From: an uncultured Eubacterium sp.
GTDB lineage: Bacteria; Bacillota; Clostridia; Lachnospirales; Lachnospiraceae
DNA length: 53,764 bases
Assembly: GCA_947385775.1 (NCBI GenBank)
Contig: CANDMI010000018.1
Location: forward strand, 1 to 53,764
Reading direction: 5' to 3'
Positions within the stretch are counted from its first letter, which is position 1; each line of letters starts with the position of its first letter. The translations under genes were made by a program, and so were the position numbers. This document shows, piece after piece, positions 32,168 to 37,677 of this stretch. Under the pieces are notes generated by a model that saw only the letters and a list, made by a program, of their open reading frames with translations, was not told the DNA's origin and did not search any database.

Positions 32168-32253
32168 CAGATGCGCACCATCTCCTTTTTATATGGTTTT
32201 CCTTTGCTAAAAAAGCAAAAAACATGAATCCGCTCCCATCCTTAGAACATTGC

Positions 32254-32931
32254 TTAAGCTAAGTATTTCTCATTATTAGCATAGTCATAAAGCAATCTTG
32301 TTACTGCTGACAAAATCTTAGAAACTTTAGTTTCCCAATTAGAAAATTCCTCTGCTGTCACCCCTGAACGAAAATTCCCATGGGCTATAGAGTTTCTCCG
32401 ATTTACCAATGCATCAATATCACTTTGACAATCATCAAATAAATCTATGGGCAATCCTACTTTATACAAATTTTTCTGCAACACTATGTACCATAAATTA
32501 GATTCTGTGTCTATTATTTGATCATCAATATTTAATTCCTGTTCTTTAAAATCCTCAACCTTCTCCATAAAATCAACGCGACGATATAAACGATGTAAGC
32601 GGGCATCATCTGGCAACTCCTTACGAAAAATTTCGCATTTTCTATCCAAATTTTCATAAGCGATAAATTCTTTATGCATACTTGCTACCATCAAGCCCGT
32701 ATTTACATCCTTGCGAGTTAATCCTTGTGAGTTTATATACTGTACATACGTCTGCAAACAAATTTTAATATATCCTTCCAGATGTGAATACAGTATTAAT
32801 ACTAAACTTTTTCTATACTTATTTTTGTTTTCTTCTGCAATCTCGCTTAATTGATTCTTGAAAAAGGCAAGTTCCTCTTGTCTCCAAGCTAACTCTACTT
32901 CAAGAGCCGCCCTAAATTCATCTGCCGTCAA
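32254..32931 (-). CDS. MAE_28990/MAE_18760-like HEPN protein (225 aa)
   Basis: All-helical protein with the HEPN RNase signature R-x4-H as RNSIAH (Arg179-His184), preceded by an acidic helix (DDCQSDIDALVNR), and an N-terminal SHLEGYIK helix typical of the MAE_28990/MAE_18760 family. HEPN proteins cleave RNA as dimers in toxin-antitoxin and phage-defence systems; activity here is inferred from the intact motif. Start is a TTG (32931) inside the end of the DUF262 gene (14-bp overlap), so translation is coupled, with the ATPase-like partner made first. The pair is AT-rich compared with both flanks, suggesting transfer. No other start with a ribosome binding site is available. Confidence 0.82.
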   Translation of the reverse strand: MTADEFRAALEVELAWRQEELAFFKNQLSEIAEENKNKYRKSLVLILYSHLEGYIKICLQTYVQYINSQGLTRKDVNTGLMVASMHKEFIAYENLDRKCEIFRKELPDDARLHRLYRRVDFMEKVEDFKEQELNIDDQIIDTESNLWYIVLQKNLYKVGLPIDLFDDCQSDIDALVNRRNSIAHGNFRSGVTAEEFSNWETKVSKILSAVTRLLYDYANNEKYLA

Positions 32932-34009
32932 GAATCCTACTCACTCCTTCCGTAAACAGCTTTATTCTTGTTTTTACTCCATTGACACTTCCCGTCTTAT
33001 ATGGTTGAAGTTCTGCTCCATATTTAATTTGATTAATCGCTTCAATAATCGTATTAGCACAATCATATGACAATATTTGGTCTATCAAAGACGCAATCGA
33101 AATTGCAATTCCGTCAAAATAATATAGCACAAATTCATTTTTTATAGTTCCATTAGCTGTTCTTCCCGAAAAAACCTCCTCACCCCAATTTTCATTTATA
33201 AACTTGAAGGTTTGTTCAAAAATATTTTTCTCTTTTTGGTATTCAAAGTGAATTTGTTCCGTTGTGATTTTTTCTAAATACCTTGTTAAGTATTCCGTTA
33301 CAGGATATCTGTAGTTTTCTATATCATTTTTAATGGCAAAAAATCTTAAAACAAGCTCTTGGTCATATTTTGTTTTTCTTTTATCTGATGCAACCCTATT
33401 AATTACAGACTTAAAGTCTTCATTCTTGCTACACTCTTCTAGGAAATCAATCCCCTTCGAGCCCAATAATCTAATTGTACAATTCCGTATTTCTTGTGCA
33501 GATAAAATTTCGCCGCCTGTATTCAATCGTTTAAACATATGGTATTTTAGAGAAATCTCGCTCTCTTTCTTAATAACTTCCATACGAACAAAACTTCTTT
33601 TTATTTTTATCTGCAAAGCTTTTGGCAAATTATCAAATGTTAGTCCATTTAAATCCTTGACTATATCGCATCCTTGCAATTCTAAAAAATCATCATCGGT
33701 TTCACCTAACCGTTCCCCCCTAAAATGCAAATAACTAGATATTCTTTGCAATCCATCAATCAACTCGTAAACTCCATCATCTGTCTCTATAACAAAGATC
33801 GGTGGAACAGGCATTTCTAAGATTAATGATTCTACAAAACGTGATTGTTTTTCTTCTTCCCATCTAAAGAGTCTTTGATAATCTGGTGAAATTGTCAATT
33901 CCTTATTTTTATACATATCGTATAATTCATTGAATGAAACATCTAAGCTTTTTGTTCTAATTTTTATAATTTGCCTATCCACATTTTCAATTAAATTTTC
34001 TATTGCCAT
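32918..34009 (-). CDS. DUF262 (ParB/Srx-fold, GmrS-like N domain) protein (363 aa)
   Basis: DUF262 core with PDYQRLFRW (42-50), the NTP-binding/hydrolysing motif DGLQR (85-89) in ELIDGLQRISSYLHF, and FKRLNTGGE (159-167). The rest is helical, ending TEGVSRILDGR. DUF262 is the nucleotide-hydrolysing part of GmrSD-type modification-dependent restriction enzymes, but the GmrD-like DUF1524 HNH nuclease is absent. The adjacent HEPN protein could supply the nuclease instead. Promoter TTGTTA-16-TATAAT lies just upstream, so the two genes form one unit. I know this pair as a recurring association but recall no characterised named system made of just these two. Confidence 0.85.
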   Translation of the reverse strand: MAIENLIENVDRQIIKIRTKSLDVSFNELYDMYKNKELTISPDYQRLFRWEEEKQSRFVESLILEMPVPPIFVIETDDGVYELIDGLQRISSYLHFRGERLGETDDDFLELQGCDIVKDLNGLTFDNLPKALQIKIKRSFVRMEVIKKESEISLKYHMFKRLNTGGEILSAQEIRNCTIRLLGSKGIDFLEECSKNEDFKSVINRVASDKRKTKYDQELVLRFFAIKNDIENYRYPVTEYLTRYLEKITTEQIHFEYQKEKNIFEQTFKFINENWGEEVFSGRTANGTIKNEFVLYYFDGIAISIASLIDQILSYDCANTIIEAINQIKYGAELQPYKTGSVNGVKTRIKLFTEGVSRILDGR

Positions 34010-34057
34010 ACTTTCCCTCTCTGCCTACAATTTTTCACATCGGGTGACCCTATCTTT

Positions 34058-34085
34058 ATTATAGCAAGATTTACAAAATTAACAA
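34058..34085 (-). promoter_or_regulatory. Promoter of the DUF262-HEPN operon
   Basis: Minus-strand TTGTTA (34080-34085), 16 bases, TATAAT (34058-34063), about 50 bases before the ATG at 34009. GAGAGGGAAAG precedes the start. Confidence 0.65.
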
Positions 34086-34154
34086 CTCTTTTTAAATTGT
34101 TTTGCAATGGAACGCCGTTTTTGAGGACAAACATATTAAACCCTTATCTCGTCC

Positions 34155-34300
34155 TTACAGTACCTGCTTGATAATTGCAATCCCTTTACCTATTGTTGTT
34201 CCACTTATACTTGCTAATAATAAGATACAGACAACCAGCGCCATTTTGCCGCCCAAAATACAAAACCAGATACAAATAATGCCCCAATGATTTTCATCAT
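34155..34300 (-). pseudogene. Decayed small membrane-protein ORF coupled to the TetR remnant
   Basis: An ATG at 34300 overlaps the stop of the TetR remnant (ATGA). It reads MMKIIGALFVSGFVFWAAKW and stops at 34214. In the next frame a hydrophobic reading continues (MALVVCILLLASISGTTIGKG) to a TAA at 34155. Together they look like one frameshifted membrane protein, perhaps the start of a permease regulated by the TetR gene. It is too short to classify. Confidence 0.4.
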
Positions 34301-34795
34301 GTTAATTCCCGGTTCGAGCATATCGAACCTCCATTACTTTTGTTGTGATATAACTTGAAACTTGCACATGCTTGTGTAAGTAGCCGCCTTATTTCTTCGG
34401 GCGCAATGTTCGTTGCATTCGTAGAAACAATCGTTGCGATACCATGTGTAAATATCCATGTTTTCACAAACACTTCCGGTTCCATCGGAATAGGAACGCG
34501 CTTAGCCAGATCGTAAAGGCTTTCAAGTCTTGCCCCGCTATCTGACATATATAAAAGACGAAACAGATTTTTTTTCATTTTGAGCCAGCTCCACATACTT
34601 TAGTCCCATGCTTAAAAAATAGGGAGGTTCTGTATCAGAGGGCTGTTGCAGCATGGTTTCTTCAAATAGTTTTTCCGTTTTTTTGTAAACTTCTTTTTTT
34701 AGTTCTTCCATATTGCGAAAAGCATGGAACACTGGCTGAGTAGAGCATTTTAATTCGCTGGCAAGCAAACGCGCAACCGAAACGACAAGGCGCAT
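34297..34795 (-). pseudogene. TetR/AcrR-family regulator, N-truncated and frameshifted
   Basis: The minus strand encodes LLASELKCSTQPVFHAFRNMEELKKEVY, the second half of a TetR helix-turn-helix, but the first DNA-binding helix and normal start are missing. After GLKYVELAQNEK the frame breaks at a run of eight A residues (T-run 34570-34577 on the plus strand). The ligand-binding part resumes in another frame as NLFRLLYMSDSGARLESLY and runs to a TGA at 34297. Two lesions mean it is not a working regulator. A terminator-like hairpin lies directly upstream (34804-34845). The family assignment is secure from KCSTQPVFHAF; target unknown. Confidence 0.8.
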
Positions 34796-34940: not shown

Positions 34941-35274
34941 CTACGCCGCTTTCCATAATAAAATACCCTCTTTTTGAATATTTTTATAAAATGGCAGAAT
35001 CTCCCCCCCACTTTTTCATTTTCTCTTCCTCAATATCTACAAAAGAAAATACCTTTTCATATTTCATATCGAATTTCGCAGACCCTTCCAAAAACTCTTG
35101 TCTTTTATCAAAACTAATTTCCTGCCTAATTATAACCGCAATATCAATATCACTTTCCGGTAAGTCATCCATTCTTGCGGAAGGGCCAAATAATATGATC
35201 TGCGATATATTTCCATCAAATATTTTTCTTAAGCCTGCCGCCAAATCCTTCACGATACAATCAGACAGCGCCAT
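34941..35274 (-). pseudogene. Minimal nucleotidyltransferase (MNT), frameshifted in a 7-base G/C run
   Basis: The reading MALSDCIVKDLAAGLRKIF...ISQIILFGPSARMDDLPESDIDIAVI is a Pol-beta-type nucleotidyltransferase of the MNT class (GS-x-x-R-G...SDID motif, here GPSARM...SDID, so the Gly-Ser is altered). In the present frame it ends at 34984 after KKWGGDSAIL. Removing one base from the seven-C run at 35003-35009 restores the expected ending WGEILPFYKNIQKEG to a TAG at 34943-34941. This could be a natural frameshift, a phase-variable tract or a sequencing error. The ATG lies 4 bases after the macro-domain stop. MNTs in toxin-antitoxin pairs add AMP to HEPN partners; no adjacent HEPN gene is present, though one lies 2 kb away. 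Confidence 0.8.
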
Positions 35275-35278
35275 TTCA

Positions 35279-35788
35279 TCAGCCCATATCCAGCGCCGAC
35301 TCGTAAGCCCTGTAAGTCCCATCGTCAAATAGCGCCCATTCCACCAGGTCAAACGCCTTTGGATTGTCGTCCAAAAAACGCCGCAGCGCCCCTACCGCCA
35401 CCTTTGCCGCTTCCAAAACCGGATATCCGTACACGCCTGTGGATATAGATGGAAATGCAATGGAACGGATGCCGTTTTCAACCGCAAGCTTTAAGGAATT
35501 GCAGTAACAGGATTCCAGCAGCTCCGCCTCTTTGTTACTTCCGCCCTTCCATACAGGCCCTACCGTATGGATCACATATTTACATGGAAGGTTATAGGCT
35601 TTTGTAATCTTTGCCTCTCCTGTCCGGCATCCATGAAGCGCACGGCATTCCTCTAAAAGCTGCCTTCCAGCCGCCCGGTGGATCGCCCCATCCACCCCTC
35701 CACCGCCAAGCAGCGAGCGGTTCGCGGCATTGACAATCGCTTCCACATCCGTGATTTTTGTAATATCTCCTTTGACTAGCCTGATCAT
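35279..35788 (-). CDS. Macro-domain protein, O-acetyl-ADP-ribose deacetylase-like (169 aa)
   Basis: Macro domain of the MacroD/YmdB group: [23 protein letters not shown] (ligand-adenine Asp and catalytic Asn), [16 protein letters not shown] (phosphate loop), [22 protein letters not shown], and [12 protein letters not shown]. These enzymes hydrolyse O-acetyl-ADP-ribose and can strip ADP-ribose from proteins or nucleic acids. GGAGG lies 6 bases before the ATG at 35788, so the longer frame to 35866 is rejected. It is followed 4 bases later by the nucleotidyltransferase; co-transcription suggests a shared role in nucleotide-based modification, but that is inference. Confidence 0.9.
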
Positions 35789-35871
35789 CCTTTTCCTCCA
35801 AAATTTTACGCTTTCTGTGTGCGCAAACAAGCTCCAGCCGCGCCCATTTGAAAAAACAGATCCCACCCTCT

Positions 35872-37359: not shown

Positions 37360-37677
37360 CTAACCGGACGCGGGGGATGGGCTTAGCGTCTCCACGATAA
37401 ATTTCGGGACTCCGCTGTAAGCCCCGCCTTTTAAACGGCTCCTGTCACAGATGATCATAATGTCCGGACATACATGATCGTCATTGATCTTAGGATGATA
37501 TTTAAAATCCAAATTCTCTATCGATACGATGCATGCGCCGCCTTTTAACCCCTGCTTGATCAATGCGTAAATATTGCCGTTGATCAAGCCATGCCAGTAT
37601 CCCGGGGCAGGCGACATCTCGTATATTACGCCATCCATTTTTTCATCTTTTTTTCTTTCATATTCCGCAAATCCCAT
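37360..37677 (-). pseudogene. Uma2-family (DUF820) endonuclease, C-terminally truncated (105 aa)
   Basis: Shows the first two-thirds of a Uma2-family PD-(D/E)XK protein: IYEMSPAPGYWHGLINGNIY, then VCPDIMIICD (catalytic Asp) and FIVETLSPSPASG (catalytic Glu). The frame stops at 37360 before the usual D-x-x-x-K-x-x-x-Y and EYWIVD segments, so the domain is incomplete; intact members are about 180-190 residues. Neither alternative frame continues the domain. AGGATGAGGG lies before the ATG. It may be a deletion remnant. Confidence 0.75.

Follow-up and report, generated by a model that had tools for sequence, protein, structure and literature searches.

Several described systems place a DUF262 protein next to a nuclease or a HEPN protein. 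PD-T4-2 was found in E. coli ECOR65 by Vassallo et al. (2022; PMC9519451), where it is reported to protect E. coli K-12 against T4 and where its deletion from ECOR65 greatly increases T4 plaquing; the text of that paper which was examined makes no mention of DUF262, and the domain assignments come from a review (PMC10952713) whose table enters PD-T4-2 twice, once under DUF262 and once under the PF18735 HEPN family. In the parts of it used here, the same review describes the DUF262 of GmrSD, BrxU and SspE as a nucleoside triphosphatase (NTPase) component that controls a nuclease directed at modified DNA, and describes Menshen as a pairing of DUF262 with a nuclease predicted to be of the OLD type. 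Anantharaman et al. (2013; PMC3710099), in the passages concerned, reported operons that combine MAE_28990 HEPN genes with genes for a ParB nuclease and for DNA methylases, and others in which Ribo L-PSP-HEPN is joined by ParB. Here we analyse a stretch of 53,764 nucleotides from an uncultured Eubacterium sp. of the Lachnospiraceae (contig CANDMI010000018.1, assembly GCA_947385775.1; below, “the window” means this whole stretch), which carries a DUF262 gene followed by a HEPN gene. With a probability of roughly 0.6, we read this pair as an anti-phage cassette of two genes, horizontally mobile and of the same kind as PD-T4-2, in which a DUF262 sensor gated by a nucleoside triphosphate (NTP) would license a HEPN ribonuclease (RNase).

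A preliminary description of the locus, made from the sequence alone, treated this two-gene pair as matching no characterised system, which is wrong given PD-T4-2 (PMC9519451, PMC10952713) and the HEPN-ParB operons (PMC3710099), at least as the consulted portions of these papers present them. A dedicated study of the DUF262-HEPN pair was not found among the matches listed (for example the best 30 of 2,984) in mainly openly readable literature, and the word HEPN is absent from the examined text of a 2025 study of GmrSD diversity (PMC12373910).

The window cassette is confirmed as real and intact. Both genes are encoded on the same strand, DUF262 first, and overlap by 14 bp (Table 1). The first protein matches PF03235 in Pfam (E 4.7e-25), while the second matches PF18737, HEPN_MAE_28990 (E 1.3e-40; 140.3 bits, curated cut-off 26.8), and is tied with PF18735, HEPN_RiboL-PSP (E 1.8e-40, over the gathering cut-off). 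Neither protein gave a row for DUF1524/HNH (PF07510) in Pfam, or any match in NCBIfam, at E up to 1. The TTG start codon of the HEPN gene is shared by all eight close relatives in which both genes are intact (L004-L011). Damaged genes were ruled out, both frames and all motifs being intact.

Table 1. Features of the DUF262-HEPN locus (window coordinates)
Feature	Position	Strand	Remarks
DUF262 gene (GmrSD_N / ParB-Srx fold)	32918..34009	minus	363 aa, ATG start; presumed NTP-dependent sensor
DUF262 motif DGLQR	33757-33743	minus	residues 85-89
DUF262 motif FKRLNTGG	33535-33512	minus	residues 159-166
HEPN gene (MAE_28990/RiboL-PSP type)	32254..32931	minus	225 aa, TTG start; presumed RNase effector
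HEPN catalytic-type R179 (RNSIAH motif)	32397-32395	minus	
HEPN catalytic-type H184 (RNSIAH motif)	32382-32380	minus	
Candidate sigma-70 promoter of the operon	34058..34085	minus	TTGTTA, 16 nt, TATAAT; extended -10 (TG ahead)
Mobile unit: both genes and, in the closest copies, ~130 bp of upstream sequence	32237..34145	minus	homology ends near the edges; GC content in text

These coordinates and motif positions bear out the open reading frames (ORFs), the DGLQR, FKRLNTGG and RNSIAH motifs, the TTG start and the 14-bp overlap of the preliminary description. It was also right that both genes are AT-rich against the chromosome: the unit has 32.5% GC, compared with 47.2% across the rest of the window and with 37.2% in the most AT-rich of 481 other segments of the same size. 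Its claim of one promoter holds in part. A candidate can be named, the best-placed match, and its core TTGTTA-16-TATAAT is also readable 5′ of copies L004-L007 (not of L008-L012), but a promoter scan gave 12 matches against a mean of 11.4 in shuffled DNA, which is no excess. Because the scanner matches shuffled DNA equally often, it is solely the recurrence in L004-L007 that argues for the candidate. The lack of a DUF1524 match in either protein is likewise borne out. The suggestion that an HNH nuclease has been replaced by HEPN is better described as one DUF262 family with varied effectors.

The linkage of DUF262 and HEPN is far beyond chance. PF18737 matches were found in 6 of 299 genomes of the phylum, with DUF262 directly upstream in all six. 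In 299 genomes of the family there were 16 matches above the cut-off, in 15 genomes; DUF262 or a piece of it lies upstream in 14 (only a piece at L070 and L079), and the remaining two (L072, L073) sit at contig ends. Both sets include the match in the window itself. Five of the 21 rows of the family search fell below the Pfam cut-off and were dropped, four of them (L076, L077, L078, L080) with no DUF262 beside the match and the fifth (L081) overlapping the L079 stretch. Viral contigs were approached from the other gene: a HEPN ORF lies directly downstream of DUF262 in 76 of 80 loci, a figure biased upward by a query built almost wholly from HEPN-linked DUF262 proteins. Two of the other four loci end with their contigs (L124, L142), one has an unmatched ORF (L132) and one an NsnB-like ATPase (L152). 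The set comprises the best 80 of 158 confirmed loci; 75 of the 76 were counted by script and L097, in which the stop-to-stop HEPN frame overlaps DUF262 by ~208 nt, slightly more than the script allowed, was added by eye. It includes near-copies, 60 of 75 HEPN rows being left once those above 80% identity are removed. The HEPN profile applied to the phylum, family and viral-contig loci was seeded with the window and with loci among L004-L028, which therefore match by construction.

The same order is seen in annotated plasmid, phage and E. coli loci, where the ORF right after DUF262 exceeds a Pfam HEPN cut-off in 13 of 14; these loci were hand-picked from match lists rather than drawn at random, and Pfam decided HEPN identity. 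The exception, L022, stops at the end of the plasmid record, and in L027 the HEPN ORF begins upstream of the annotated start. Hosts of the pair include Alpha-, Beta- and Gammaproteobacteria, Actinomycetota, Spirochaetota and Bacillota. Chance adjacency is ruled out by the recurrence of the linkage in the phylum, family and viral-contig sets. Together with the alignments, this co-occurrence upholds the preliminary description's conserved two-gene unit of a DUF262 NTPase-fold protein and a HEPN protein with invariant R-x4-H.

In the alignments, the R and H of the HEPN R-x4-H motif are invariant in 43 of 43 proteins. A HEPN alignment offered no stretch of sufficient conservation for a search of the sequence collection. 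The DUF262 DGxQR motif is likewise invariant, with L in 39, V in 4, A in 1 and Q in 1 of 45 proteins at its third position; this variability rules out DGLQR as a defect relative to the textbook DGQQR. Structural comparison of the models with Foldseek, in which no row had an E below 0.001, placed BrxU and SspE best for DUF262 and the HEPN toxin of an MNT-HEPN pair best for HEPN; a sequence search of the PDB with the HEPN profile returned a single weak match (E 0.085). The invariant DGxQR could also be taken to mean that DUF262 itself is the effector, acting by depleting NTPs or nicking DNA, a role suggested for some ParB/Srx proteins, with HEPN as a back-up or regulator, and the literature, as far as consulted, contains proposals of nuclease or NTP-hydrolysing roles for ParB/Srx proteins in conflict systems. 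We consider this improbable: HEPN catalysis appears essential, because R-x4-H is invariant in 43/43 proteins and the HEPN gene follows DUF262 in 76/80 viral-contig loci.

A scan of genome contigs with the HEPN protein gave 12 loci, 8 of which (L004-L011) have both genes intact and are 69-97% (DUF262) and 71-98% (HEPN) identical to the window. When the whole window is compared with these eight by blastn, each gives one block and the flanks do not align. For the closest copies the block runs from about 32232 to about 34159 and for the most distant ones it shrinks to roughly 32328-34009, a module of 1.7-1.9 kb. Compared among themselves (28 pairs), the eight copies again show a single block in each pair, which is essentially the module itself; L004 and L006 extend furthest beyond it, by ~250 bp upstream, where the L006 contig ends, and by ~180 bp downstream. 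For L005, L006 and L009 the upstream sequence compared was 250-395 bases each. Because only the module aligns between the window and eight other genomes, the cassette is, to judge from these alignments, a horizontally mobile unit. Remnants are also found: in L012 DUF262 is interrupted and HEPN is truncated by the contig end, L013-L015 are remnants as well, and a genome of the same genus (L038) retains a 475-bp piece of DUF262 with 96% identity. With intact copies lacking shared flanks and remnants elsewhere, the module seems to be gained and lost often. An empty site could not be established among 13 genomes of the genus (the source genome included), in which the flanking genes were matched at scattered places.

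Relatives also reside in phages, prophages and plasmids. In a P2-like E. coli prophage the pair sits between the CI repressor and the integrase, in a Vibrio phage it comes after a CI-type repressor, a Terrisporobacter phage carries it too, and plasmid copies adjoin restriction-modification genes. The prophage sites beside repressor and integrase speak for superinfection defence. Five plasmid and phage loci (L019, L020, L021, L025, L026) have DNA methyltransferase or restriction-modification genes within a few kilobases, and such methylase neighbours recall the MAE_28990 operons as described in 2013 in the part of PMC3710099 consulted. The window pair resembles those operons, on the same partial source, in its HEPN family (PF18737), its ParB-fold operon partner and its conserved active site, but differs in that no DNA methylase was identified among the family-checked genes of the window; some relatives have one nearby.

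Translational coupling of a first gene to a second is a feature of many toxin-antitoxin operons, and the DUF262 gene is coupled in this way to the HEPN gene. The pair could accordingly be a toxin-antitoxin system, with HEPN a constitutively active RNase toxin that is released when its antitoxin, DUF262, is lost or inhibited. The best structural row for the window HEPN, under the E limit given above, is the toxin of an MNT-HEPN pair, other HEPN proteins (MNT-HEPN) act as toxins in toxin-antitoxin pairs, and ParA-HEPN pairs have been proposed to be toxin-antitoxin systems, according to the consulted part of PMC3710099. We nonetheless hold this reading to be unlikely. The DUF262 of GmrSD, BrxU and SspE is described, in the part of PMC10952713 used, as an NTPase component controlling the nuclease. 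A copy on a Leptospira noguchii plasmid (L018, 2935-4697) has DUF262 split by one in-frame stop beside an open HEPN gene with RNKIAH, which disfavours a strict antitoxin, subject to this being one record and possibly a sequencing error. Such a split DUF262 beside an open HEPN is also a hint that HEPN may be harmless without its partner, and it weakly favours activation over antitoxin control.

How close the window pair is to PD-T4-2 was assessed with the E. coli pair L162 as a stand-in for the ECOR65 sequence, and with the 2023 version of the PADLOC library (limit E 1 for the window and the first partner set, E 0.1 for the last set). The likeness consists of an adjacent DUF262 (PF03235) and PF18735 HEPN with a 14-bp overlap, a match of the window DUF262 to PD-T4-2_A (PDLC04027; E 3.3e-39, 133 bits), and 30% identity to the L162 DUF262 over 303 aligned positions. 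L162 itself matches both PD-T4-2 models, with 186.5 and 33.0 bits. The window HEPN, however, has no match to PD-T4-2_B at E up to 1, its only PADLOC row being a weak one to RTasHEPN (17.6 bits), so that a comparison with PADLOC models, which the preliminary description had proposed, supports the assignment for DUF262 and not for HEPN. Among nine HEPN partners, the window's included, PD-T4-2_B matched those of E. coli L162 (33 bits) and L024 (18.3 bits) only. The window HEPN exceeds the cut-offs of both PF18737 and PF18735, and that of L162 exceeds PF18735 only. A DUF262 tree of 54 rows, in which the deep branches are long and their order uncertain, puts the window in a clade of 9 rows (support 100/100) from Bacillota and near relatives, nested in a 43-row group (93/86) in which all rows but L132 are HEPN-linked. 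L162 and L024 group together outside the window clade; they lie outside the 43-row group as well, as do the two rows of Menshen type and some further rows with a HEPN link. We have therefore filed the window pair as the same kind as PD-T4-2 and not as PD-T4-2 itself. Since the window HEPN falls outside the PD-T4-2_B model, the pair represents a divergent branch that PADLOC covers poorly.

The window DUF262 scores best in PADLOC with NsnA (209 bits), one of three proteins (NsnA, NsnB, NsnC) that we take to be the components of Menshen; no relevant paper on the Nsn names was among the literature matches listed. This preference does not discriminate, because NsnA outscores PD-T4-2_A for all nine DUF262 proteins put to PADLOC. 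The window locus has neither the ATPase NsnB nor NsnC, and HEPN follows DUF262 instead. The NsnA score was therefore not taken as grounds for assigning the pair to Menshen. The likeness to GmrSD, BrxU and SspE lies in the DGxQR and FxxxN motifs of the window DUF262 and in its best structural rows, BrxU and SspE; the difference is that those systems carry a DUF1524 HNH domain, which was not found in either window protein.

A PF03235 search of the source genome found DUF262 in three places, each with a different partner. On one contig (C57; L165:491-2674) it forms part of a complete GmrSD of 727 aa (PF03235 with PF07510, 2.9e-26). On a second (C24; L164:2165-5258) it belongs to a Menshen-like NsnA-NsnB-NsnC operon (312.5, 290.4 and 66.9 bits), and the third (C18) is the window contig with the DUF262-HEPN pair. 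In a search of this genome with NsnB, the 10 matches listed include a strong one on C24 and none on C18. The GmrSD protein has ~150 extra C-terminal residues and its gene adjoins a two-component regulator pair; in the NsnC protein of 260 residues the match takes in residues 1-167, with DUF4160 at the C-terminus. The co-occurrence of GmrSD, a Menshen-like operon and the HEPN pair in one genome fits DUF262 as an exchangeable input module, paired with HNH, with an ATPase and NsnC, or with HEPN.

The PD-T4-2-like reading draws on the intact genes, their linkage, the invariant motifs, the sequence families, the mobility and the relatives in prophages and plasmids. In the mechanism we propose, DUF262 would be an NTP-binding sensor of the ParB/Srx fold that responds to a sign of infection, most likely DNA that is modified or abnormal in some other way, as the analogy to BrxU, GmrSD and SspE suggests. 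Predicted NTP turnover in DUF262 would license the translationally coupled HEPN, the presumed direction of control, and HEPN, an R-x4-H RNase that is probably dimeric, would cut RNA as its putative target. Phage defence by the window copy would follow from this cleavage, which may stop the infection, most likely through growth arrest or abortive infection. Alternatively, the pair might selectively destroy phage transcripts or nucleic acid while the infected cell survives. Of the 21 systems that Vassallo et al. describe, 9 are reported to give direct immunity, a figure for the whole set and not for PD-T4-2 itself (PMC9519451, from the text consulted), but no targeting domain beyond DUF262 and HEPN was found in either protein with Pfam or PADLOC, and we regard direct restriction as rather unlikely.

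Other genes lie near the cassette in the window. Just upstream, at 34297-34795 (minus strand), a pair of short ORFs (99 and 85 aa) that overlap in different frames resembles a broken, possibly TetR-like regulator as a sequence impression, with no family in Pfam. At 34984-35866 (minus) an MNT-type nucleotidyltransferase gene (PF18765/PF01909) adjoins that of a macro-domain protein (PF01661, E 3.6e-50), and a Uma2-type putative nuclease (PF05685, E 1.4e-12) is encoded at 37360-37677 (minus).

The value of the finding is mainly corrective, in that a sound observation belongs to a kind of system already published and experimentally supported in E. coli. A bolder proposal, which we advance tentatively and think somewhat doubtful, is that RNA, in place of DNA, is cut here in response to a GmrSD-family sensor of modified DNA, and that the DUF262 input is exchanged between three outputs (HNH DNase, ATPase with NsnC, HEPN RNase), even inside a single genome, as part of a very widespread and largely unmodelled two-gene “type IV-like” branch of immunity. 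DUF262-HEPN pairs are common across several phyla, in chromosomes as well as in prophages and plasmids, and counts based on PD-T4-2_B, which matched two of nine HEPN partners, may miss many pairs of this kind. Should DUF262 detect modified DNA in these pairs as described for BrxU and SspE, they would link a DNA signal to the destruction of RNA.
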